From positions 1-30,183 of IMG/VR virus record IMGVR_UViG_3300046009_014647: a DNA stretch of 30,183 bases; one strand, given 5' to 3'. The position numbers and the translations under genes were made by a program. This DNA is from a virus. Positions 18,191-30,183 of this stretch are shown here, one piece after another; within the stretch, counting starts at the first letter, position 1; every line of letters begins with the position of its first letter. The notes under the pieces were generated by a model that was not told the origin of the DNA, did no database searches, and saw only the letters and a program-made list of their open reading frames with translations.

Positions 18191-19207
18191 ATGACCAACT
18201 TGTTCCGCAAGACAGCGGTATTCACTGACATCCACTTTGGATTGAAATCCAACAGTGCCCTGCATAACCAGGATTGTGAACGATTTGTTGATTGGTTCAT
18301 CGCCACTGCCCGAGAGAAGGGCTGCGAAACCGGTATGTTCCTAGGAGACTGGAGCCATCACCGAGCCAGCATCAACATGCAGACTTTGCAATACAGTCTG
18401 CGTGCCTTGGAAAAGTTGAGTGCGGCATTTGATCGATTCTATTTCATCCCGGGCAATCACGATCTTTATTATAGAGATCGGCGTGATATCTTCTCAACAG
18501 AATGGGCTCGGCACATACCCAACATCATCATTGTCAACGACTGGTTCCAAGAAGGTGATGTAGTGATCGCTCCATGGCTGGTGGGCGATGACCATAAACG
18601 CATACAAAAGATGAGTGCGAAATACATGTTCGGACACTTTGAACTACCGCACTTCAAAATGAATGCCATGGTAGAGATGCCCGATCACGGCGAGATTTCG
18701 GTGGAACACTTTGGCCATTATGATCAAGTGTTTTCGGGTCATTTCCACTTACGGCAGAACAAACGCAATATCAACTACATCGGCAATGCGTTTCCACACA
18801 ATTTCGCCGATGCGGGCGATGCCAATCGAGGCTGTATGATCCTAGAGTGGGGCAAAGATCCGGAATATCTGGCATGGCCCGAACAGCCCTTGTACAATGT
18901 ATGGGATCTCAGCCATGTAATCGATCACGCCGACGAAATACTCAAACCTAACCAGCATGTGCGTGTACAGTTGGACATAGAGATATCATACGAAGAAGCG
19001 AACTACATCAAGGAAAACTTCATAGGCAAATATAGTCTGAGGGAGATGGCCTTGATCCCTAACAAAAGATCTGCCTTGGAAGAGGACATGGCCCCGGGCG
19101 ATGTAAAATTTGAGTCAGTGGATCAGATAGTCACAGATCAGATCACCAAGATCGAAAGCGAATTCTACGATCCCAAACTGCTATTGCAGATATATCAGGC
19201 CCTATGA
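18191..19207 (+). CDS. gp47: Recombination nuclease subunit gp47 (Mre11/SbcD-like)
   Basis: A 338-residue calcineurin-like phosphoesterase, the same size as T4 gp47 (339 aa). It pairs with gp46 to resect DNA ends for recombination-dependent replication and host DNA breakdown. Metal-binding motifs are present in order: D-x-H at residues 13-15 (VFTDIHFG), GDWSHH at 52-57, GNHD at 88-91, a histidine in FGHFEL near 143, and SGHFHLRQ near 180. The start lies 12 nt after gp55. The stop overlaps the next ATG as ATGA. In T4 relatives gp46 follows closely; here a radical-SAM gene intervenes. Confidence 0.95.
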   Translation: MTNLFRKTAVFTDIHFGLKSNSALHNQDCERFVDWFIATAREKGCETGMFLGDWSHHRASINMQTLQYSLRALEKLSAAFDRFYFIPGNHDLYYRDRRDIFSTEWARHIPNIIIVNDWFQEGDVVIAPWLVGDDHKRIQKMSAKYMFGHFELPHFKMNAMVEMPDHGEISVEHFGHYDQVFSGHFHLRQNKRNINYIGNAFPHNFADAGDANRGCMILEWGKDPEYLAWPEQPLYNVWDLSHVIDHADEILKPNQHVRVQLDIEISYEEANYIKENFIGKYSLREMALIPNKRSALEEDMAPGDVKFESVDQIVTDQITKIESEFYDPKLLLQIYQAL

Positions 19208-20787
19208 GTTTAGAAAATGTATTGTTATCTATGCAGGAAAAGTACGATTGTTCTGAGCCTTTGTACCTATCTAACTTTTTCAAACCCAATGGCAAAAAAT
19301 GGTTGTATGATAAATTAAAAAATTTATACCAACCAGTATATCAAAACCGTTATAGAATATTGTTGATTCAAGACTGTGCTGACATCTATGATTACAGTGA
19401 CTTGCCAGGATCGATGATCACAACTATTCAAAAATACGCCAGTCAAATTGATATTTCTAATTCCTTTATTTTGTTGCTAACGAACAATAGAGATATCGGA
19501 AAAGAATTGGAAACTGCAAGAGAGTTGTATTCAACTGACATCTGTTCGATACAATATCATCTGATTGATAGTTTACCGTTTTCTTTAAAATCCAATTCTA
19601 AAAAAGACACATTTTGCGTTTTGCCTTGGATGCATTTATATGTTGGAACAGATGGTAATGTGTTGCCCTGTTGTCAGGCTGATCATCAATTTCCCATGGG
19701 AAACATCAATTCTCAATCAATCATTGACATTGTTAAATCGCAGCCTTTTAATCAACTAAGGGCCAACATGATTGCAGGATCACGAAGTAAAGAATGTGCC
19801 CGATGTTACCAACACGAAGATTCTGGATTACCAAGTCCACGATTAAATCATAATTCAAGATGGTCCAATGTCGATGTTGATCATATAAATCCAAACGGCT
19901 TCATCGAAGAATTCAAACCTGTGTATCTTGATATACGTTTAAACAATATTTGCAATCTCAAATGTCGTATGTGCAGTGGATATTTCAGCAGTGCAATTGC
20001 TCGTGAAGAAGTAGAATTATTTGGTAATACCAATTCTGTTGATTCGACGCTAGGATCGCAAAAACGAAAATCTGGATTGGCAGAAATACTACAGTATCTT
20101 CCAACTGCAGAAAAAATTTATTTCGCAGGTGGTGAGCCACTGTTAGCATCTGAGCATTATGAAATATTGCACACTCTCATTTCTTGTGGCAATACTGATT
20201 TAGAAATAATCTACAACACTAATTTTACAACTTTACGATACCAACAACAATCTGTGTTAGATTTATGGAAACAATTTTCTAACATCGAAGTTGGTGCTAG
20301 TCTAGATGCCATGGGAGAAGTGGCCGAATATATCAGGCACGGTACCAATTGGAAAACGATCGAATCAAATTTACAATCAGTCAAAACAGAATGTCCACAT
20401 GTGAAGTTTACTGTTACCTCAACTGTTGGACTTCTAAATATTCCTAGTTTAATTGATTTACAAAAACTCTGGCATACAGATGGAACACTGGATCTTTCAA
20501 AATTTTCATTGTCGGTCATGCTGAGTCCAGATCATTTGACTGTGTGTGTGCTACCACTGGAACATAAAAAACGGTTAGATATAATTATAAATCGTCATAT
20601 CCATTGGTGCGAAGAACATTCTGCGTATTCTCTTGCAAAAAAATGGAAAGATGTGTTAACATACATGTGGTCTAGAGATGACAGTCACCAATTGTCTAAA
20701 TTTCGGAGATTAACACAATTTATGGATAACCACAGAAAACAATCATTATCCAACACTATTCCAGAATTACAAAACCTATTATTGTGA
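19204..20787 (+). CDS. Radical SAM protein with N-terminal twitch domain, inserted between gp47 and gp46
   Basis: A 527-residue radical S-adenosylmethionine enzyme. An auxiliary-cluster (twitch/SPASM-type) half domain comes first: FCVLPWMHLYVGTDGNVLPC, with C156/C157 and C198/C201 (CARC). The catalytic core follows: C250-x3-C254-x2-C257 (CNLKCRMC) for the 4Fe-4S cluster and GGEPLL near 309-314 for SAM binding. This order matches the family I know as twitch domain-containing radical SAM proteins, whose substrates are mostly unknown. Residues 1-135 match nothing I recognise. The gene overlaps gp47 by ATGA and gp46 by GTGA, so it is cleanly built into the operon, yet it is visibly more AT-rich than both, suggesting recent acquisition. 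Peptide or sugar modification are both possible. Confidence 0.9.
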   Translation: MSLENVLLSMQEKYDCSEPLYLSNFFKPNGKKWLYDKLKNLYQPVYQNRYRILLIQDCADIYDYSDLPGSMITTIQKYASQIDISNSFILLLTNNRDIGKELETARELYSTDICSIQYHLIDSLPFSLKSNSKKDTFCVLPWMHLYVGTDGNVLPCCQADHQFPMGNINSQSIIDIVKSQPFNQLRANMIAGSRSKECARCYQHEDSGLPSPRLNHNSRWSNVDVDHINPNGFIEEFKPVYLDIRLNNICNLKCRMCSGYFSSAIAREEVELFGNTNSVDSTLGSQKRKSGLAEILQYLPTAEKIYFAGGEPLLASEHYEILHTLISCGNTDLEIIYNTNFTTLRYQQQSVLDLWKQFSNIEVGASLDAMGEVAEYIRHGTNWKTIESNLQSVKTECPHVKFTVTSTVGLLNIPSLIDLQKLWHTDGTLDLSKFSLSVMLSPDHLTVCVLPLEHKKRLDIIINRHIHWCEEHSAYSLAKKWKDVLTYMWSRDDSHQLSKFRRLTQFMDNHRKQSLSNTIPELQNLLL

Positions 20788-22547
20788 TACAGATCAAAGA
20801 CCTAACTGTAAAAAACTTCATGAGCGTAGGCAATGCCACGCAAGCCATCAATTTTGATCGCAGAGATCTCACCTTGGTGTTGGGTGAAAATCTTGATCTT
20901 GGAGGCGACGGCAGCCGCAATGGCACAGGTAAAACTACCATAATCAATGCTTTGAGTTATGCCCTGTATGGACAAGCACTAACCAACATCCGCAAAGACA
21001 ATCTCGTGAACAAGACCAATGGCAAAAATATGTTGGTCAGTTTGGATTTTGCTATCAACGGACGCGACTACCGCATAGAACGAGGCAGGAAGCCTAATGT
21101 GCTTAAATTCTATGTCAACAACGAAGAGCAGGCTTCAGAAGATGACAGCCAAGGTGACAGCCGTGAAACACAAGATGCTATAGAATCAACTCTGGGCATG
21201 ACTCATGACATGTTCAAGCATGTGTTGGCCTTGAACACTTATACAGAACCGTTCCTAGCTATGAAAGCCAATGACCAGAGGTTGATGATCGAGCAATTGT
21301 TAGGAATCACGCTACTGAGCGAACGAGCAGAGCGCATCAAAGAATTGAATCGCGAGACCAAAGATGCCATCGCACAAGAAGAGATGCGTATCCGTGCAGT
21401 ACAAGAAGCCAATAAACGGATAGAAGAACAGATAGAAAGCCTGAAGAAACGACAGACACTTTGGTTGGCCAAACAACGAGAGGACTGCGACAAACTGCAA
21501 TCGGCCATTGATGCCCTGGAACACATCAATATCGATGCAGAAGTGCAAGCGCACCGAGATCTAGAGGAATATCATACCCGTAAAAAAGCCATAGATGACT
21601 GCAATCGATATATCCGACAGATCGATCAGGAGCAAAGCAAACTCGAGCGCGAACAGGACAAACTCCAGCGAGAGATCGCTGCATTAGACGAACATAAATG
21701 CTACGCCTGTGGCCAGGACATCCATGATGTCAAACAGGACGAAATACGAAAAAACAAACAGGCTTCCTTGCAAGAGATCGCACTCCAGTGTCTCTCCAAT
21801 GACACACAGCGAACCGAGCATGTGAATGAGCTAGACGATCTTGGTGAGTTGGGATCAGCACCTGTGGTATTCTACGACAGTCTAGAGCTGGCACTAAATC
21901 ACAAGAATAGCCTTGGAACTCTGCGCAAAGATCTTGTTAGTCGGCAGAATGACGCTGACCCTTATGCGGAACAAATCTCGGATATGCAAGGACAGGCCCT
22001 GCAAGCAGTGACCTATGATGCGCTGAACGAATTCACGAGATTGCAGGAACATCAAGACTTCCTGCTTAAATTGTTAACCAACAAAGACAGTTTCATACGC
22101 AAAAAGATCATTGAACAGAACTTGTCATATCTCAACAATCGGCTCACGCACTATCTCGATCGCATTGGACTGCCGCATCAGGTCATATTCCAAAATGATC
22201 TCACAGTGGAGATCACAGAACTAGGACGTGATCTAGACTTTGATAATCTCAGCCGCGGAGAACGAAATCGTTTGATCTTGAGCATGTCATGGGCATTCCG
22301 TGATGTATGGGAGAGTCTATATTCGCCGATCAATGTGTTGTTTATTGACGAATTAGTAGATTCAGGTATGGACACACAGGGCGTAGAAAACTCGTTGGCT
22401 CTGCTAAAGAAAATGAGCCGAGAGAGAAACAAGTCAATCTGGCTTGTGAGCCACAGAGACGAACTAGCAGGTCGTGTAGAAAACATACTGCGTGTGGTCA
22501 AAGAAAACGGGTTTACTTCTTACAACACTGATGTCGATGTCGCGTGA
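20784..22547 (+). CDS. gp46: Recombination nuclease subunit gp46 (Rad50/SbcC-like ATPase, GTG start)
   Basis: A 587-residue SMC/Rad50-type ATPase; T4 gp46 is 560 aa. The Walker A region ends in NGTGKTT (residues 46-52). A coiled coil (about 175-300) leads to the zinc hook CYAC (306-309), and a second coiled coil returns. The ABC signature LSRGERNR sits near 488-496, Walker B VLFIDELVDSGMD near 516-528, and the switch histidine in VSHRDE follows. With gp47 it forms the DNA-end-processing nuclease. The GTG start overlaps the radical-SAM stop. It is chosen because the family N-terminus (IKDLTVKNFMSVGN) begins right after it, and an internal ATG would cut off the first strand. Confidence 0.95.
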   Translation: MIQIKDLTVKNFMSVGNATQAINFDRRDLTLVLGENLDLGGDGSRNGTGKTTIINALSYALYGQALTNIRKDNLVNKTNGKNMLVSLDFAINGRDYRIERGRKPNVLKFYVNNEEQASEDDSQGDSRETQDAIESTLGMTHDMFKHVLALNTYTEPFLAMKANDQRLMIEQLLGITLLSERAERIKELNRETKDAIAQEEMRIRAVQEANKRIEEQIESLKKRQTLWLAKQREDCDKLQSAIDALEHINIDAEVQAHRDLEEYHTRKKAIDDCNRYIRQIDQEQSKLEREQDKLQREIAALDEHKCYACGQDIHDVKQDEIRKNKQASLQEIALQCLSNDTQRTEHVNELDDLGELGSAPVVFYDSLELALNHKNSLGTLRKDLVSRQNDADPYAEQISDMQGQALQAVTYDALNEFTRLQEHQDFLLKLLTNKDSFIRKKIIEQNLSYLNNRLTHYLDRIGLPHQVIFQNDLTVEITELGRDLDFDNLSRGERNRLILSMSWAFRDVWESLYSPINVLFIDELVDSGMDTQGVENSLALLKKMSRERNKSIWLVSHRDELAGRVENILRVVKENGFTSYNTDVDVA

Positions 22548-23403
22548 AATAAAAGTCCTGCATCTTGAACCCACGGACGTGTGCCAGGCAGCATGCCCAG
22601 CATGCGCACGAGAGACTGATTTTTCTTTTGATAAATCCTCGAGGCATCATCTCACCATAGAGCAGATACAGCATCATATCAACGATGCTGGTATAAAAAA
22701 TCTCGACAAGATGTTCATGTGTGGCAACTACGGAGATCCTGCTGCAGGTCGACACACTCTAGATATCTACCGTTATTTCCGCAGGGTTAATCCTGAAATT
22801 GAACTAGGCATGAACACCAACGGTGCCATACAAAACGCTGCCTGGTGGCAAACCTTGGGCGAGATATTCCATCGCCAGAGAGACTATGTGGTATTCAGCA
22901 TCGACGGGCTCGAAGATACCAACCATGTCTATCGTCGCAATGTTGATTGGAATAAACTGATAGAGAACGCCCGAACCTATATCAGTACAGGTGCCAGCGC
23001 ACATTGGGATATGCTGGTCTATCGTCACAACGAACATCAAGTCGACGAGTGTGAACAATTGGCACGATCGTTGGGATTTACTTGGTTTCGGGCCAAGGTC
23101 AGTCGTCGACAACTGATCAATGGCCTGGAATCTCCGGTGAGTTGGAGTTCTCCAGTGTTGAACACTCAGCAAATTGACTGCCATGTGTTAAAGGAGCAGA
23201 GTATCTACATAGATGCACAAGGGCGGCAGTCTCCGTGTTGTTGGTTAGGTAACCGTCAGAAAGATTTTATCTCGGACATTGAGCAAGTGATCCCGACCTG
23301 GGCAACAGATTCACCGAATCGCACATGCCTATCTGCGTGTGGCCGATCTGCTCAACAATCAAATTTTTCAGCCCAATGGAGAAGAGAAATACAGATATGT
23401 TGA
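22537..23403 (+). CDS. Radical SAM protein (tandem copy 1)
   Basis: A radical SAM enzyme of 288 residues from the ATG at 22537. C16-x3-C20-x2-C23 (CQAACPAC) is the 4Fe-4S motif, CGNYGDP follows in the position of the GGE motif, and SIDGLEDTN is a typical core strand. The C-terminus has QSPCCWLGNR and CLSACGRS, cysteines that could hold an auxiliary cluster as in SPASM proteins. An upstream ATG at 22492 would only add 15 residues read from inside gp46, so 22537 (or 22531) is preferred; both overlap the gp46 end. It shares the CGNxGDP and PCCW motifs with the next gene, so the two are paralogues. The substrate is unknown. Confidence 0.85.
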   Translation: MSREIKVLHLEPTDVCQAACPACARETDFSFDKSSRHHLTIEQIQHHINDAGIKNLDKMFMCGNYGDPAAGRHTLDIYRYFRRVNPEIELGMNTNGAIQNAAWWQTLGEIFHRQRDYVVFSIDGLEDTNHVYRRNVDWNKLIENARTYISTGASAHWDMLVYRHNEHQVDECEQLARSLGFTWFRAKVSRRQLINGLESPVSWSSPVLNTQQIDCHVLKEQSIYIDAQGRQSPCCWLGNRQKDFISDIEQVIPTWATDSPNRTCLSACGRSAQQSNFSAQWRREIQIC

Positions 23404-24425
23404 TGTGGGATCATTGGCACATAGAACCATCTAGTATCTGCACCCTTAAATGCCCCAGGTGCCCTAGATCTGAGGTGCCCGAAACTTTATTAAATCGGAG
23501 TCTAACTTTAGAGTTCTTCCAGAATCAGATCGGTGCTGATGTGGTTAGACAGATCCGCAAGATCACTTTTTGCGGTAATGATGGTGATCCCATTTACTGT
23601 CGAGAACTCATGGATATCTGTATGTGGCTCAAGACTGTGAATCCCAATATCCATCTAGTGATCATAACCAATGGGAGTTATAAAACGCCCGAATGGTGGA
23701 GGGCCTTGGGTCGGATATTGGATCATCGTGATGAAATCAACTGGAGTATTGACGGCTGGGATCAACACAGCAATGAACAGTATCGTGTAAATTCCGATTG
23801 GTCTAGCATCATGGATGGCATCAAAGCATTTTGCGAAGCCAACAGTTCAACCTATCGTGTGTGGGCTGCTATCGCTTTTCGATTCAATCAAGATCAGTTA
23901 AACAACATGCAGACCATGGCACAGGACACAGGCATGGATCTTTTCCAGATCACTAAAAGCACTAAATTTGGAAGCCATTATCCTGATACCTATGGTGTTT
24001 TTGATCCATTGTGTCCTGAGCGTGCTGATCTAGTGAGTTCTAGCCATAGATTTGAAAGGGTGCTGAAATTTATTACTAATCGAACTCGCCCAGGCGAGTT
24101 ATTGAAAGAGATTTTTTGGAGACGGGCACAGGACCTAGACAAAAACAAACAGCATTCGGGCATCTGCCTCATAGGCAACAAAGGCGTATTCCTCAACAGT
24201 CAAGGCGAGTTTTATCCCTGTTGTTGGACAGCCAATCGCTATCAGCACAACAAAGAATGGCACGATTTGGCACAGTCTCAATTCAACCTATGGCATAGGA
24301 ATTTCTCCGATATCAGCAAAGACGATTTTTGGCGAACCAAATTTTTAGATTTTGATAGCCATGAGTGCCGGACAAAATGCACACCCGACCGGCTAAAAGA
24401 TAAAGAACATGTAACAGAATGGTAA
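23397..24425 (+). CDS. Radical SAM protein (tandem copy 2)
   Basis: A second radical SAM enzyme, 342 residues from the ATG at 23397. C15-x3-C19-x2-C22 (CTLKCPRC), CGNDGDP, INWSIDGWDQHSNEQY, and a C-terminal YPCCWTANR plus CRTKC region parallel copy 1. A GGAGAAGAG ribosome-binding site ends 10 nt before the chosen start. An ATG at 23376 lies before this site, and 23403 gives a TGATG overlap with the previous stop, so either is possible; 23325 lies deep in copy 1 and is unlikely. GC content is closer to the phage core than that of the 527-aa gene. Radical SAM pairs often modify peptides or sugars, but no precursor peptide is visible nearby. Confidence 0.85.
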   Translation: MLMWDHWHIEPSSICTLKCPRCPRSEVPETLLNRSLTLEFFQNQIGADVVRQIRKITFCGNDGDPIYCRELMDICMWLKTVNPNIHLVIITNGSYKTPEWWRALGRILDHRDEINWSIDGWDQHSNEQYRVNSDWSSIMDGIKAFCEANSSTYRVWAAIAFRFNQDQLNNMQTMAQDTGMDLFQITKSTKFGSHYPDTYGVFDPLCPERADLVSSSHRFERVLKFITNRTRPGELLKEIFWRRAQDLDKNKQHSGICLIGNKGVFLNSQGEFYPCCWTANRYQHNKEWHDLAQSQFNLWHRNFSDISKDDFWRTKFLDFDSHECRTKCTPDRLKDKEHVTEW

Positions 24426-24437
24426 CTACTACAATAC

Positions 24438-24875
24438 ATGACATGGTTGTACGAATCACAGGAAATCACGGCGATCCCCGAAGAATATGCTGGTTTTGTT
24501 TATCTAATAACCAATAAACAGACCGGTAGGATGTACATTGGCAAGAAACTTAGCAAATTTAAAAAAACCACATACAAGACAGTAAAACTCAAAAACGGCA
24601 AGAAGAAACGCAAGAAAATACGCGGCACCATAGATTCAGATTGGCAGACATATTACGGCAGTTCTCCGGAGTTATCTCGAGATGTTGAACTGCTAGGCAC
24701 AGAAAATTTCACACGCGAAATATTATATTACTGCCGCAGCCGGGCTGAATGCAGTTATATAGAGGCTCGCGAACAATTCTCCCGCAGAGTACTTGAATCA
24801 GACGAATACTACAATGGTCACATACAGGTTCGTGTCCACGGTAGTCATATCAAAGGAAAAATAAAAGATGAGTAG
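24438..24875 (+). CDS. SegE-like GIY-YIG nuclease-fold protein
   Basis: A 145-residue protein resembling the SegE-type GIY-YIG domain found across T4-like phages. The two strands are FVY (20-22, for GIY) and YIG (33-35). A lysine-rich insert follows (41-62), then DWQTYYGSSPEL (69-79) and a helix with E109 and E112 that could supply the catalytic glutamate. Homing endonucleases of this fold usually carry an extra DNA-binding domain; none is present. A core phage nuclease or an immobilised Seg remnant are both possible. It overlaps the next gene by 8 nt, so it belongs to the operon and not to a free-standing mobile unit. Confidence 0.8.
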   Translation: MTWLYESQEITAIPEEYAGFVYLITNKQTGRMYIGKKLSKFKKTTYKTVKLKNGKKKRKKIRGTIDSDWQTYYGSSPELSRDVELLGTENFTREILYYCRSRAECSYIEAREQFSRRVLESDEYYNGHIQVRVHGSHIKGKIKDE

Positions 24876-26159: not shown

Positions 26160-26160
26160 T
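26144..26160 (-). terminator. Possible terminator of the gp26-DUF6614 operon
   Basis: A 7-bp stem (AGATCTC/GAGATCT) with a 3-nt loop begins in the stop codon of the DUF6614-like gene on the minus strand. Only a broken T-rich stretch (GTTGATTTCGTTTC) follows. The 13-bp hairpin at 26095-26138 lies just beyond and may add to termination. Confidence 0.4.
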
Positions 26161-26495
26161 CAGAACTGGTCAGGCCAATCTCGGAACAAGGCGTGTTGTA
26201 TGTTGCCCGACACAAACTGATTGAAACTTCGATGTTTGCTTTCTAGTTCGCCTTGCAACGGAGCAACACGACGGAATGCATCGTCCATTTGCCCCATGTT
26301 TTTAAACTCCATTATGATCATCCATTCGGGCATGTCGGGTATGCTTCTAAATCCCATCTTGCACCGGGTGATCCTGTATGTTTCCATCTTGCCTTCGGCG
26401 ATGAGATGATCAAAGAAACTTTTCATTCCGTTGACCCAGTCAAGGTCTGTTATGTCACCTTCTTTGTCTGCCCATATGGTGTATAAATCGCTCAT
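26160..26495 (-). CDS. DUF6614-like small protein
   Basis: A 111-residue protein that resembles the DUF6614 family. Typical stretches are LYTIWADKEGDITDLDWVNG, ETYRITRCKMGF, PEWMIIMEFKNMGQMDDAFR and ALFRDWPD. Its pattern of strand-helix-strand units suggests a dimeric alpha/beta barrel. The family occurs in bacteria with no known function, so the gene is probably host-derived. The ATG overlaps the stop of the GNAT-like gene as ATGA, so it is the last gene of the minus-strand operon led by gp26. A hairpin starts at its stop codon. Confidence 0.75.
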   Translation of the reverse strand: MSDLYTIWADKEGDITDLDWVNGMKSFFDHLIAEGKMETYRITRCKMGFRSIPDMPEWMIIMEFKNMGQMDDAFRRVAPLQGELESKHRSFNQFVSGNIQHALFRDWPDQF

Positions 26496-26932
26496 GTCAT
26501 TGGTCCTAACAGTTCAAATCCTGCTATCTCTTTTTTGTACAGATGCGCCTGCTCGAGGTAGAGATAACGGAACCCTCGTGCTTTATAGATAGCACACTCT
26601 GTTTTCATGGTTTCTATGCCAAGGCGCAGTCGTGGATTGTGATAAGTCCAAGCAAACTGATCGCATATGGCGTTTTCATCATCGTATCTTCGTATCAGAC
26701 TGAATGCTACTATTTGGCCACGATCAAGGTAACCAATAACATCGGCCATGGGATCCAGCAATCTTGATTCAAACAAGGGCATGACCGATGCAAAGTGTTT
26801 GTAAATGCAGTAGGTCCTGTAAATCTCTTGGCACTGATTAATATCTTGTTGAGATTTGTCAAGATACTGCCACTTCACAGATTCGGTGTAATTGGTCAGT
26901 GAGAGATCCACTCGGGCAAAATGATAAGTCAC
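26492..26932 (-). CDS. GNAT-fold acyltransferase-like protein, resembling the arginyl-tRNA-protein transferase C-terminus (GTG start)
   Basis: A 146-residue protein. The second half, WTYHNPRLRLGIETMKTECA then YKARGFRYLYLEQ and YKKEIAGFELLGP, follows the pattern of the GNAT-type C-terminal domain of aminoacyl-tRNA-protein transferases: a long helix after S/L-L-G, a G-x-x-Y-x-Y-L strand and a terminal K-x-x-F. VIGYLDRGQIVAFSLIRRYD is the matching core hairpin. The N-terminal half of a true transferase, with its cysteines, is missing. The GTG at 26932 overlaps the previous stop as GTGA. A longer reading frame to 27148 exists but would overlap 220 nt of the upstream gene and reads as nonsense. 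The acceptor is unknown; any GNAT-type acyl or aminoacyl transfer is possible. Confidence 0.7.
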   Translation of the reverse strand: MTYHFARVDLSLTNYTESVKWQYLDKSQQDINQCQEIYRTYCIYKHFASVMPLFESRLLDPMADVIGYLDRGQIVAFSLIRRYDDENAICDQFAWTYHNPRLRLGIETMKTECAIYKARGFRYLYLEQAHLYKKEIAGFELLGPMT

Positions 26933-27426
26933 TGTCGCGGATCCTTTCGTCCTTGGAACAACTCCGAAAGGTAGTCTTCGGGCCAATCCTTGTAGTAGCC
27001 TTTCTCTGCTATCATGCGAGCATGTGCATTGAGTTTGGCTAGAGGCTGCACAAAAGCGATGGCCCAGGTGCCTTGGTTCATGGTCACACCCTGCACCACT
27101 TCGGGTGACTCGGGATGATCGGCCAAGGCCAGGAGATCTCTGGCACACAAGAATCCTTGATTCACAGCAATGATCTGCTGATTGAATTCGTCGGGTTCAA
27201 ACTCTGCGGGATCGTAGACCAAGGCCACGACATCTAGTTCGCCAATGTTGATATGCTGTAGATCTGTATAGGGATCGATCTGTCCTGGTCTGATCTCAAA
27301 TTTGCCTTCTATTCTAGCACGGCGTGCGTAAGGGCATGGAGCCCAGCCCGACAGTGCAGGATGTGGTCGTTCCACAAATCCTGTGACCCAGGCCAAGATG
27401 TCCAATTGTGCTTGTTCAAAATTCAT
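26929..27426 (-). CDS. Unrecognised 165-aa protein with CPYARR motif
   Basis: I do not recognise the family. From the ATG at 27426 the protein begins MNFEQAQLDILAWVTGFVER and has GWAPCPYARRARIEG near residues 27-41, distantly like the LCPFA signature of DUF1415 proteins. Later segments (IGELDVVALVYDPAEF, QGFLCARDLLALADHP, GTWAIAFVQPLAKLNAHARM) look like a compact alpha/beta protein. An earlier ATG 27 codons upstream lies inside the chaperone frameshift frame and is disfavoured, because 27426 follows that frame's TAG by one base. It is coupled to the GNAT-like gene by GTGA. It may work with the next two genes as an accessory enzyme set, but no reaction can be named. Confidence 0.75.
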   Translation of the reverse strand: MNFEQAQLDILAWVTGFVERPHPALSGWAPCPYARRARIEGKFEIRPGQIDPYTDLQHINIGELDVVALVYDPAEFEPDEFNQQIIAVNQGFLCARDLLALADHPESPEVVQGVTMNQGTWAIAFVQPLAKLNAHARMIAEKGYYKDWPEDYLSELFQGRKDPRQ

Positions 27427-27427
27427 G

Positions 27428-27658
27428 CTAGAAAAAAGGCAGTCCGCTCTTCTTAGTTGTTTCAAGATTTTCTTTGATGATCTCGGAAACGATCTCTCGT
27501 TCGCCATGACTGAGATTCATGGCTTCGGTGTAGGTCAATCCTCCGCGCATGTACCAAACAAATTTCAATGCTTCTCGGCGTATTTCTTTGGACTCCTGAT
27601 CCATGCCATCGACTAGTGCGACGATCTTTTGTTCGTCAGAGATCAGGAGCCGGATACG
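27428..27658 (-). CDS. Tail-assembly-chaperone C-terminal domain, expressed by -1 frameshift from gp26
   Basis: Seventy-six codons are open in the -1 frame relative to gp26, from the slippery site to a TAG at 27430-27428. They read FRIRLLISDEQ-type linker, then DQESKEIRREALKFVWYMRG, LTYTEAMNLSHGERE, and end TTKKSGLPFF. The helix-rich sequence and the terminal GLPFF resemble the T part of phage GT-type tail chaperones. The frame joins gp26 exactly at TTTTTTC, giving a 352-residue fusion. An internal ATG at 27604 has no visible ribosome-binding site, so independent translation is less likely though not excluded. The fusion would bind tail tube or tape measure subunits during assembly. Confidence 0.75.
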   Translation of the reverse strand, partial: RIRLLISDEQKIVALVDGMDQESKEIRREALKFVWYMRGGLTYTEAMNLSHGEREIVSEIIKENLETTKKSGLPFF

Positions 27659-28485
27659 AAAAAACGAGCATTATCCAAGGTAAATGCCTGCTCGTATTCA
27701 TGCTGGCAGGACTGACACCGCATCTTAAGCGGGCGTATCTCACTGACTTCTCTCATCTGGATCACTCGATCTTTGATCTGTGTGAACACAGCGCGATCGC
27801 ACTTCTGCATGAACTCCAGGATCTGATCTGTTTCTTGTACCACGGCAGTGGGTGTGCGGATCTCTCTGATGCTTTGGCTCAGCACAGTGACCGTGGCCTC
27901 CATCATGGATCGCATCATGCGATTGATCTGCTGGACCTTGTTTTCGTCAGGCGTGTTGGCGTCACTGAGTATCTGCACTGTCTTCTGTTGCTCAAACTGC
28001 AACACGCTGTTGGCCGTGATTTCACGATAGTTCAAGGGGCGGAAATAAATGGTGAGATCGCCCACCACCAAGGGTTTGGCATAGTCATCGGACCGTATCT
28101 TGTCGATCACTGTGCGCAGATCTAGGCCATACTGGCTTTCCGATTGGCAGGCTGGACAAGTGGTATCGATGTCCATGCTGTTGCCATAGCTGGCGATACG
28201 GATACTCACCAGGATGGTGTCTAGATCACAGGCTGGTATGCTCCAGGCATCTCGGATGTTGGGTATGCAGCTCTGTATCACTGATGTCACGGCTTCACCG
28301 TTGAACAGCGCATCTGGTGTACGATAAGTGATCTCATCCATGGCTGTCATGGGATACACCGGCAGTTCACTGTTGGCGCCAAGATCCAGGCTGCCTGCGG
28401 GCCATCCTTTGCCTTGGCTGGGCAGTCGGATGTAGATGGCGGGCTGCCGGAAGAACTGGCTAAGTGGGTTGGAATTTGGGTTCAT
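27643..28485 (-). CDS. gp26: gp26-family T4 baseplate protein / tape-measure chaperone (zero-frame product)
   Basis: A 280-residue protein of the T4 baseplate (gp26-like) family. Recognisable parts are YIRLPSQGKGWPAG (18-31), PVYPMTAMDEITYRTPDALF (42-61) and IPNIRDAWSIPACDLDTILV (74-93). Two CxxC pairs (C110/C113 and C257/C260) probably form a zinc ribbon. In T4, gp26 is listed as a hub component; small proteins of this kind next to the tape measure gene act as its chaperones in other tailed phages. The stop TGA at 27645-27643 comes four codons after a slippery TTTTTTC, so this is the shorter of two predicted products. The gene diverges from the tape measure gene, with 59 nt holding both late promoters. 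Confidence 0.88.
   Translation of the reverse strand: MNPNSNPLSQFFRQPAIYIRLPSQGKGWPAGSLDLGANSELPVYPMTAMDEITYRTPDALFNGEAVTSVIQSCIPNIRDAWSIPACDLDTILVSIRIASYGNSMDIDTTCPACQSESQYGLDLRTVIDKIRSDDYAKPLVVGDLTIYFRPLNYREITANSVLQFEQQKTVQILSDANTPDENKVQQINRMMRSMMEATVTVLSQSIREIRTPTAVVQETDQILEFMQKCDRAVFTQIKDRVIQMREVSEIRPLKMRCQSCQHEYEQAFTLDNARFFVSGS
27658..27664 (-). promoter_or_regulatory. Predicted programmed -1 ribosomal frameshift site (T TTT TTC)
   Basis: In the gp26 frame the codons are CGT TTT TTC, so the heptamer is X XXY YYZ with X=Y=T and Z=C. After slippage the -1 frame stays open for 76 codons, and the zero frame stops four codons later. About 20 nt downstream, GACGA and TCGTC can form a 5-bp stem with an 8-nt loop as a weak stimulator. 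Confidence 0.75.
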
Positions 28486-28544: not shown

Positions 28545-30183
28545 ATGGACGAGCGCGAACTAGAACAACTATTTGACAAATTCCGCAATGGCGTGGATCT
28601 CACAGATCAAGAGATGCGCAAACTGGGTCGCGGCACCAGCGAGTTTGGTAAAACTCTCAAGAGTGTAGGTCTGGATCTCACCAAGACCATGGGCGGATTC
28701 GCCAAGGGCCTGGCCGAGGGTGCCACTGACTTCAAGCAGCTGAATCCAGTGATCGATGGTGTTGTGGGCGGACTGGGCGAAATGGCCAAGGCCATACCCT
28801 ATGCTGGCAATCTCGCGGCCGGTGCCCTCAAACTGGTGGCCGAAGGCAGCAAATTCATGATAGGCCAACTGCAGGAGGCCACCACTGCCTTCCAGGAGAT
28901 CAGCAAGATTGGTGGTCTCACTGCACAGGGCATGTCGGGACTGCGCGAACAGTTCCTGCGATCAGGCCAGACCCTGCAGGGATTCCAGAAAACAGTGAGC
29001 GCCAATGCCCAGGCCTTGGCTCGATTCAGCGGCACGGTGGGATCTGGTGCCGAAGACTTTAGCAAGATCGTGGGCGGCATCATTGACAGCGATCTCGGTG
29101 ACCAACTGAGAAGGATTGGTTTCACGGCCGATGAGATCGGCGAGACCACGGCAGGTTACATCGCCCAACAGACTCGGCTGGGCCTGGCACAGAACAAAAC
29201 ACAGGCACAACTCATAGCAGGCAGCAAACAGTACGCAGATGAGTTGGATGTATTGGCCCGACTCACAGGACAGAGCCGCGAAGCACTGCAGAAACAGCAG
29301 GATGCTGCACTGAGTGAAGGACGCTTCCGGGCCACCTTGGATACCCTGGACGAAAAAACTGCCAAGTCGTTGCTGGACTTCCAGAGCCGATTGGCTGGCG
29401 CAGGGTTTGGAGAGATGGCCCAGGGTGTGAGAGATATCACTTCGGGATTCACCCAAAGCGAAGCTGCCATAAAACTCTTCCAGAGCACCGGTGGCGAAGC
29501 AGCCAATATCATTGAGCGATTGAAAAACAACCAGATAGATCAGGATGAAGCCGCCCGATTGCTGCAAAGGTCCATCAAAGACAACATAGCGACCAATCGA
29601 GAATTTACAAGAGCCGTAGGCGACGGTGTGGCACCGTTTATCAAATACAGCGAGGCCAGCGACTTTGCCTCGGCCACCATAGAGAACGGCGCCATCAAAG
29701 CCAAGAAAGCTCAGGCAGAAGCCCAGGCTGGTACCGATGGCCTGACCAATGACACAGTGAGTGCCCAGAAGGCTTTGGAACAGATGGGTCGCAATCTCAA
29801 CAACATGGCCTTCCAGGCTCTTCCCCATGCAGCCACAGCAGTGAATGCCTTTGCCGGAGTGCTCAACAAAGCCACAGCAGAAATCAGCAAGGAACTAGGT
29901 ATCAAGCCACCTGCAGGAGCCGGGGGTGCGGCCGCTCCTGGTGCGGCCAAAGGAGGCGCTGGCGGTGCTGGCGGCGGCGGCGGCGGCGGAGGCAAACCCC
30001 ACACCAGTTCACTAGGCGGCAGAGTCGCATCCGCGGGTGCCGGTGCAGCCGCAGGTGCTGTGTTAGGATCAGTTGTTCCGGGGATAGGCACAGCATTTGG
30101 CGCCCTTGTAGGTGGTGGCTTAGGATATTTTGGTTATGAAATGGCTGCCGGTGGTCCCAAGCCCGATGATGTATTGGACTCTC
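28545..30183 (+). CDS. Probable tail tape measure protein (partial, C-terminus beyond the right edge)
   Basis: An open frame of 546 codons starts at the ATG at 28545 and runs off the window. It begins MDERELEQLFDKFRNGVDLT. Residues about 30-130 alternate amphipathic helices with Gly/Ala stretches, as in tape measure proteins. A long helical region follows (residues about 130-440, for example FLRSGQTLQGFQKTV and LTGQSREALQKQQD). Near residues 460-490 is a Gly/Ala/Pro-rich linker with a run of eight glycines. Near 495-530 is a glycine-zipper, membrane-compatible segment (AGAGAAAGAVLGSVVPGIGT), typical of the part that may insert in the host membrane. Size, composition and position beside the gp26/GT-type chaperone pair support tape measure (T4 gp29-like). 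A direct gp29 match is not visible, so another large helical virion protein remains possible. Confidence 0.7.
   Translation, partial: MDERELEQLFDKFRNGVDLTDQEMRKLGRGTSEFGKTLKSVGLDLTKTMGGFAKGLAEGATDFKQLNPVIDGVVGGLGEMAKAIPYAGNLAAGALKLVAEGSKFMIGQLQEATTAFQEISKIGGLTAQGMSGLREQFLRSGQTLQGFQKTVSANAQALARFSGTVGSGAEDFSKIVGGIIDSDLGDQLRRIGFTADEIGETTAGYIAQQTRLGLAQNKTQAQLIAGSKQYADELDVLARLTGQSREALQKQQDAALSEGRFRATLDTLDEKTAKSLLDFQSRLAGAGFGEMAQGVRDITSGFTQSEAAIKLFQSTGGEAANIIERLKNNQIDQDEAARLLQRSIKDNIATNREFTRAVGDGVAPFIKYSEASDFASATIENGAIKAKKAQAEAQAGTDGLTNDTVSAQKALEQMGRNLNNMAFQALPHAATAVNAFAGVLNKATAEISKELGIKPPAGAGGAAAPGAAKGGAGGAGGGGGGGGKPHTSSLGGRVASAGAGAAAGAVLGSVVPGIGTAFGALVGGGLGYFGYEMAAGGPKPDDVLDS

Follow-up and report, generated by a model that had tools for sequence, protein, structure and literature searches.

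A conserved T TTT TTC heptamer and open −1 frame predict a frameshifted long form of the gp26-family tail assembly chaperone in a large T4-related myophage

The window analysed here is a 30,183-nucleotide stretch of viral DNA (IMG/VR record IMGVR_UViG_3300046009_014647, positions 1 to 30,183). The open reading frame list places a gene for a 280-residue protein at 27643..28485 on the minus strand. The product scores 62.3 bits against PF12322 (Pfam cut-off 24.5) and 68.5 bits against phrog_150, labelled ‘baseplate hub’ (E 1.2e-18), in agreement with membership of the gp26 family. It contains two CxxC pairs, at residues 110/113 and 257/260, with C110, C257 and C260 invariant, and by analogy with lambda G it is very likely the short tail assembly chaperone (TAC-N). 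The protein ends in ...DNARFFVSGS*, encoded by the terminal codons GAT AAT GCT CGT TTT TTC GTA TCC GGC TCC TGA. The T run within these codons forms the heptamer T TTT TTC (27658..27664, minus strand) in the X XXY YYZ phase of a −1 slippery site, 19 nt before the zero-frame stop (TGA, 27643..27645) and separated from it by four codons (V S G S), exactly as the first-pass annotation of this DNA had described.

The −1 frame is open from 27670, the preceding −1 stop ending just upstream, and continues for 76 codons after FF to a TAG at 27430-27428 (extension at 27428..27657, minus strand). The extension is identified by its open frame and its conservation, and in all likelihood forms the C-terminal part of a long chaperone form (TAC-NC), giving a predicted frameshift product, gp26-NC, of 352 residues. 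Its C-terminus reads TTKKSGLPFF*, and the ATG of the downstream gene follows one base on, at 27426; that gene (26929..27426, minus strand, about 165 residues, phrog_28122) is the same neighbour in relatives. The coordinates, phase, length and terminal peptide given previously for the stop-free frame are all correct. The first ATG, GTG or TTG of the −1 frame is an ATG at 27602..27604, 41 nt beyond the end of gp26; inspection of the window showed no Shine-Dalgarno sequence ahead of it, in line with the earlier proposal that the extension lacks a ribosome-binding site of its own. This ATG is not conserved within the clade of relatives closest to the window (the window clade). A DUF6614 protein (PF20319, 72.8 bits) is encoded at 26160-26495 on the minus strand, just downstream of the locus.

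The first-pass annotation had proposed aligning gp26 homologues to see whether the heptamer and the downstream −1 frame are conserved. Both are kept in 213 of 213 counted gp26 loci (141 non-redundant), the heptamer in phase as TTTTTT(C/T). Besides the window itself, they consist of 53 contigs of its own clade, 63 of the jumbo type and 80 of the cyanophage type, together with 16 isolate records. When IMG/VR was queried with gp26 alone, 55 loci were returned, 53 of them reaching the 3′ end, and more distant gp26 alignments used as IMG/VR queries gave the jumbo-type and cyanophage-type loci. Isolates were found by tblastn with the fused protein, where most matches rest on the gp26 part; since the IMG/VR queries held gp26 only, the sample was not selected for the slippery site. 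T TTT TTC is in phase in all 53 window-clade contigs, with the stop 10 or 19 nt further on, and in every contig of sufficient length the extension spans 78 codons including FF. The jumbo-type loci carry TTTTTTC in 53 cases and TTTTTTT in 10, and the cyanophage-type loci carry TTTTTTC in 80 of 80. The heptamer is also present in all 16 isolate records, at 24-32% protein identity: 121Q, GAP32, RaK2, CBB, BF, XbC2, XaC1, XacN1 (TTTTTTT), Munch, Kaldavass, Hallingskeid, PA5oct, Atu_ph07, Phosso, Vibrio 2.275.O and SCTP-2. Outside the 213, P-SSM2, S-PM2, HTVC008M, Cr30, phiM12, KVP40 and Aeh1 likewise have both the heptamer and the −1 frame. As runs of T are error-prone, a sequencing or assembly fault could in principle have split what is truly one in-frame gene; the frame offset, however, is identical in 213 of 213 loci across many assemblies, and it recurs in finished isolates including P-SSM2, KVP40, RaK2 and 121Q, so that we give this explanation practically no credence.

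At the site, the 29 non-redundant loci of the window clade agree in codon choice. Although the amino acid preceding FF can be N, R, S, D or T, its codon has T as the last base without exception, against 28% elsewhere; FF itself is invariably written TTT TTC, against 60% TTT for the first F and 40% TTC for the second elsewhere. Measurements in E. coli place U_UUU_UUY among the efficient motifs, and U_UUU_UUC is reported to shift measurably without a stimulator (PMC4066793).

Past the gp26 stop, all 136 complete non-redundant loci are free of stop codons in the −1 frame, while the other two frames of the same loci contain means of 5.5 and 6.2 stops. Substitutions fall on positions 1, 2 and 3 of the −1-frame codons in proportions of 30/18/52%; judged from this pattern, the −1 frame therefore evolves as protein, and the earlier description of the extension as strongly protein-like is borne out by the open frames and the third-position bias. 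Conservation of the −1 reading begins before the gp26 stop. In the overlap of the 44 loci whose heptamer and stop are 12 nt apart, mean pairwise identity is 68% in the −1 reading versus 37% in the zero frame, and the −1 residues are mostly R followed by an invariant L-L. With the −1 reading conserved and the zero-frame tail variable, this comparison indicates that the −1 frame is translated upstream of the gp26 stop, and start codons after the stop can therefore not account for it.

This bears on the possibility that the extension is a separate gene, expressed by termination-reinitiation or by independent initiation near the gp26 stop. Many relatives do have a −1-frame ATG at or just after the stop (53 of 65 non-redundant cyanophage loci), KVP40 and 121Q have TAATG there, and annotators call separate genes. 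Such an ATG lies within 9 nt of the stop in only 5 of 29 window-clade and 3 of 33 jumbo-type loci, however, and a conserved internal start was looked for in the window clade and not found. Initiation at the window's own ATG would remove the first helices of the predicted C-terminal domain, and neither the pre-stop conservation of the −1 reading nor the invariant heptamer would have a role under reinitiation. We consider a separately initiated gene very unlikely as the general explanation; where an ATG sits at the stop, above all in cyanophages, reinitiation and frameshifting could coexist.

RNA folding and pair counts predict a 12-bp stem in the window, its 5′ arm (GGCTCCTGATCT, 27640..27651, minus strand) containing the gp26 stop and beginning 6 nt after the heptamer, and its 3′ arm (GGATCAGGAGTC) lying at 27591..27602. 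Stimulatory structures usually begin 5-8 nt downstream, according to PMC4066793. Over bases 5-75, window-clade sequences fold more stably than dinucleotide shuffles (mean z −2.07), and the cyanophages show a mean folding z of −2.64. The latter have an 11-bp hairpin starting 5 nt past the heptamer, and its covariation is pronounced, with 29 doubly changed cells versus 10.4 in shuffles (0 of 500 as high), above slid controls too. Over all 27 window-clade loci, stem covariation is weak (12 versus 8.0 cells, 20/500); a nine-member subset gives a stronger signal, although folding was part of the reason for choosing its members, and only some members of the clade show the stem of the window clearly. 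Of 65 non-redundant cyanophage loci, 55 have a Shine-Dalgarno-like GGAG/GAGG before the heptamer, at a fixed distance of 14 nt, whereas GGAG, GAGG or AGGA occurs within 30 nt upstream in none of 29 window-clade loci. The stimulators of different lineages may thus differ, with the Shine-Dalgarno-like sequence present in cyanophages and absent in the window clade.

Bacteria and phage genes provide known cases of RNA polymerase slippage at homopolymer runs, and the run of 6-8 T found here could let the polymerase produce the long form, by omitting one base from the mRNA or adding two. The run is usually just six T, though, and C follows it in 202 of 213 loci, so there is no drift towards the longer runs that would favour polymerase slippage. 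The strict codon phase, the hairpin spacing and the Shine-Dalgarno-like sequence of the cyanophages fit a ribosomal mechanism instead, and we regard a transcriptional origin of the long form as highly improbable. Programmed −1 frameshifting is the best reading, because the heptamer is universal, the −1 protein is conserved including its pre-stop part and the hairpin stands at the usual spacing. On these signals the gp26-family gene almost certainly makes a second, longer protein by −1 slippage near its end, as the first-pass annotation had claimed.

T4, RB49 and RB43 have two paralogs of the same N-terminal family (PF12322/phrog_150) as the window gene, a short gp26 (TAC-N) and a long gp51 (TAC-NC) that consists of a gp26-like part and an in-frame C-terminal domain; T4+RB49 gp26 and gp51 align by hhalign at 98.3% (E 2e-14). 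The long form is in these phages a second gene without a slippery site, whereas the window has one gene and a predicted frameshift. T4 gp26 retains FF, written TTC TTT, and the slippery site is therefore gone. A single gp26 gene with a −1 extension is found in cyanophages, the Pelagibacter phage HTVC008M, Cr30, phiM12, KVP40 and Aeh1. In the gp26/‘short gp51’ loci of Kyanoviridae (P-SSM2, S-PM2, HTVC008M) and in KVP40 and Aeh1, T TTT TTC/TTT lies 7-10 nt before the stop and the extension has about 55-65 codons and belongs to a subfamily other than the window's. Unlike the window, the cyanophages combine the upstream Shine-Dalgarno-like motif with a compact hairpin, and frequently have an ATG at the stop too.

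The cyanophage extension aligns with the gp51 C-terminus (hhalign 93.7%, E 2e-7), and phrog_150 covers both halves in gp51 and in the cyanophage fusion. The jumbo fusion aligns with the cyanophage fusion at 98.1%, with the extension included in the alignment, and the jumbo-type extension reaches 6.3% against the gp51 C-terminus. For the window clade, phrog_150 matches no further than the junction, and the extension alone gives a non-significant hhalign probability of 0.9% against the gp51 C-terminus; searches with the window's extension alone returned nothing from Pfam and only a weak phrog_549 match (E 0.027) from PHROGs. Relationship of the window-clade extension to the gp51 C-terminus is accordingly indirect, suggested by way of the jumbo and cyanophage members and by position. 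Family membership and the gp26/gp51 paralogs of T4, RB49 and RB43 nevertheless support the earlier proposal that gp26 and its frameshifted form are the T4-like equivalent of the lambda arrangement.

We lean towards T TTT TTC frameshifting being ancestral and near-universal in T4-related myophages, with the two-gene state of T4, RB49 and RB43 derived by duplication within Straboviridae. The groups covered by this reading would be the jumbo phages of RaK2, PA5oct and Atu_ph07 type, Kyanoviridae and part of Straboviridae, in which KVP40 and Aeh1 would still frameshift. Were means other than frameshifting regarded as the norm in T4-like phages, this reading, if true, would overturn that norm. Recoding and duplication offer a natural comparison of two ways to supply two chaperone forms.

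The arrangement proposed for the window is that of lambda gpG/gpGT, in which one gene yields a short product and a −1-frameshifted long product; the script used here recovers the lambda site GGGAAAG, 25 nt before the G stop. Profile comparison of lambda G and T with the gp26 locus found no similarity, and the likeness of the extension to lambda T that the first-pass annotation had suggested seeking by profile search was not found. The idea of a lambda GT-like chaperone fusion thus stands as regards the short/long frameshift arrangement and the gp26/gp51 family, and is not supported as regards profile similarity to G or T. We are confident, by analogy, that this locus operates in the manner of lambda G/GT. 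By family it is a T4 gp26/gp51 locus, and no homology to lambda was detected. The layouts also differ: lambda T has 144 residues, and in lambda the tape measure gene follows immediately after G/T on the same strand, whereas the tape measure candidate of the window is divergent. Chaperone frameshifting in Vandenendeviridae/Andersonviridae (phage Adele), as described in PMC12846349, involves other phage families and a different motif, GTTTTT.

AlphaFold2 predicts a mixed fold for gp26 (pLDDT 87) and a four-helix domain for FF plus the extension (pLDDT 91). Nearly the whole chain of the HK97 tail assembly chaperone gp13 (2ob9) aligns with the gp26 model (102 of 107 residues) at a Z of 5.4, a value that chance matches can also reach; gp26 is some 2.6 times as long and carries the two CxxC pairs, and the likeness of the model to 2ob9 is suggestive only. 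A Foldseek search of the gp26 model against the PDB gave nothing significant, and PDB sequence searches with both profiles gave just weak, mostly helical noise. PDB matches of the extension model to bHLH and histone structures, at Z 6 or less, look like generic helix matches.

These observations are consistent with the following model. Most ribosomes would terminate at the TGA at 27645 and release gp26, the short chaperone. A minority would pause at the hairpin that starts 6 nt after the heptamer, whereupon the two tRNA-Phe on TTT TTC could slip back one base and re-pair on TTT TTT. The shifted ribosomes would read 76 further codons and so add the four-helix C-terminal domain, producing gp26-NC. 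By analogy with lambda gpG/gpGT, the N-terminal part would bind the tape measure protein, the C-terminal domain would recruit tube subunits, and neither chaperone form would stay in the virion; T4, RB49 and RB43 would obtain the same two products from their paralogs. The heptamer, its conservation, the other sequence signals and the protein-level selection on the −1 frame are direct observations, from which we infer the slippage itself, its efficiency and the chaperone function.

The assignment of gp26 and its extension as a chaperone pair follows from PF12322/phrog_150 membership, from the occurrence of one-gene and two-paralog states, and from published work on T4-like phages as far as citing papers relate it. 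It might also be that the frameshift is real but its product is part of the hub structure, or assists assembly in some way other than as a chaperone of the tape measure; some genetics cited in PMC3004832 placed T4 gp26 in the hub. The gene next door at 28545..30182 (plus strand, 546+ residues, running off the window) has a weak phrog_14121 match (‘virion structural protein’). Its full-length relatives have 720-856 residues and its RaK2 counterpart is annotated ‘similar to tail tape measure’, making a tape measure or virion protein probable; in Atu_ph07, the predicted tape measure lies elsewhere than beside gp26. Against a role other than chaperone, T4 gp26 and gp51 are listed as hub assembly chaperones in PMC3004832 and were identified as tail assembly chaperones by Vladimirov, Gautam & Davidson (Virology 2022), as related in PMC10274946 and PMC12846349. 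A different function for the frameshift product therefore seems unlikely, and there is a high probability that a large T4-related myophage encodes its tail assembly chaperones here, as a short gp26 and a frameshifted long form.

As those two citing papers present it, poly-T −1 signals are known in T4-like TAC-N genes, and some T4-like phages do without frameshifting by having one short gene and one long, fused gene. On their account the principle is already published, and the window is a further example in a large-phage clade. An earlier publication states that G-T frameshifting is widely conserved in long-tailed phages ‘except T4’ (Atkins et al. 2016, PMC5009743). To the picture drawn in the citing papers, our analysis adds the universality of the heptamer in RaK2-, PA5oct- and Atu_ph07-type phages and the window clade, the overlap evidence against reinitiation, the covarying cyanophage hairpin and a correction of annotation.

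The extension is missed in the annotations of RaK2 and PA5oct, reduced to a 40-codon fragment in Atu_ph07, called hypothetical in 121Q, GAP32, CBB and BF, and called ‘gp51’ in P-SSM2, much as the first-pass annotation had anticipated in supposing that it is normally overlooked or listed as a stand-alone ORF. From sequence comparison, phrog_18291 (‘unknown function’) and phrog_634 (‘baseplate hub assembly catalyst’) most probably represent C-terminal parts of frameshifted proteins, not proteins that stand alone. In a large group of phages, the ‘hypothetical’ ORF that follows gp26 (phrog_18291, or phrog_634 ‘gp51’) would be reannotated as part of a frameshift product. A 2010 comparison gave cyanophage gp51 as about 20% of the length of T4 gp51 and reported Aeh1 to be without gp51 (PMC3037559). 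In Aeh1 (NC_005260, about 118867-119747, minus strand), TTTTTTC lies 10 nt before the gp26 stop and is followed by a gp51-like −1 extension; a frameshifted extension would account for both the short cyanophage gp51 and its reported absence in Aeh1.

Elsewhere in the window, three radical SAM genes lie on the plus strand at 19204-20787 (with SPASM), 22492-23403 and 23325-24425, alternating with genes for a calcineurin-like phosphoesterase (18191-19207) and for an AAA/SMC ATPase (20784-22547); the latter two have the look of T4 gp47/gp46. The gene at 24438-24875 (plus strand) encodes a GIY-YIG endonuclease domain of SegE type (PF19835, 113 bits). Among PHROGs it matches phrog_447 best (E 9e-37), a family labelled ‘NAD synthetase’, probably wrongly.
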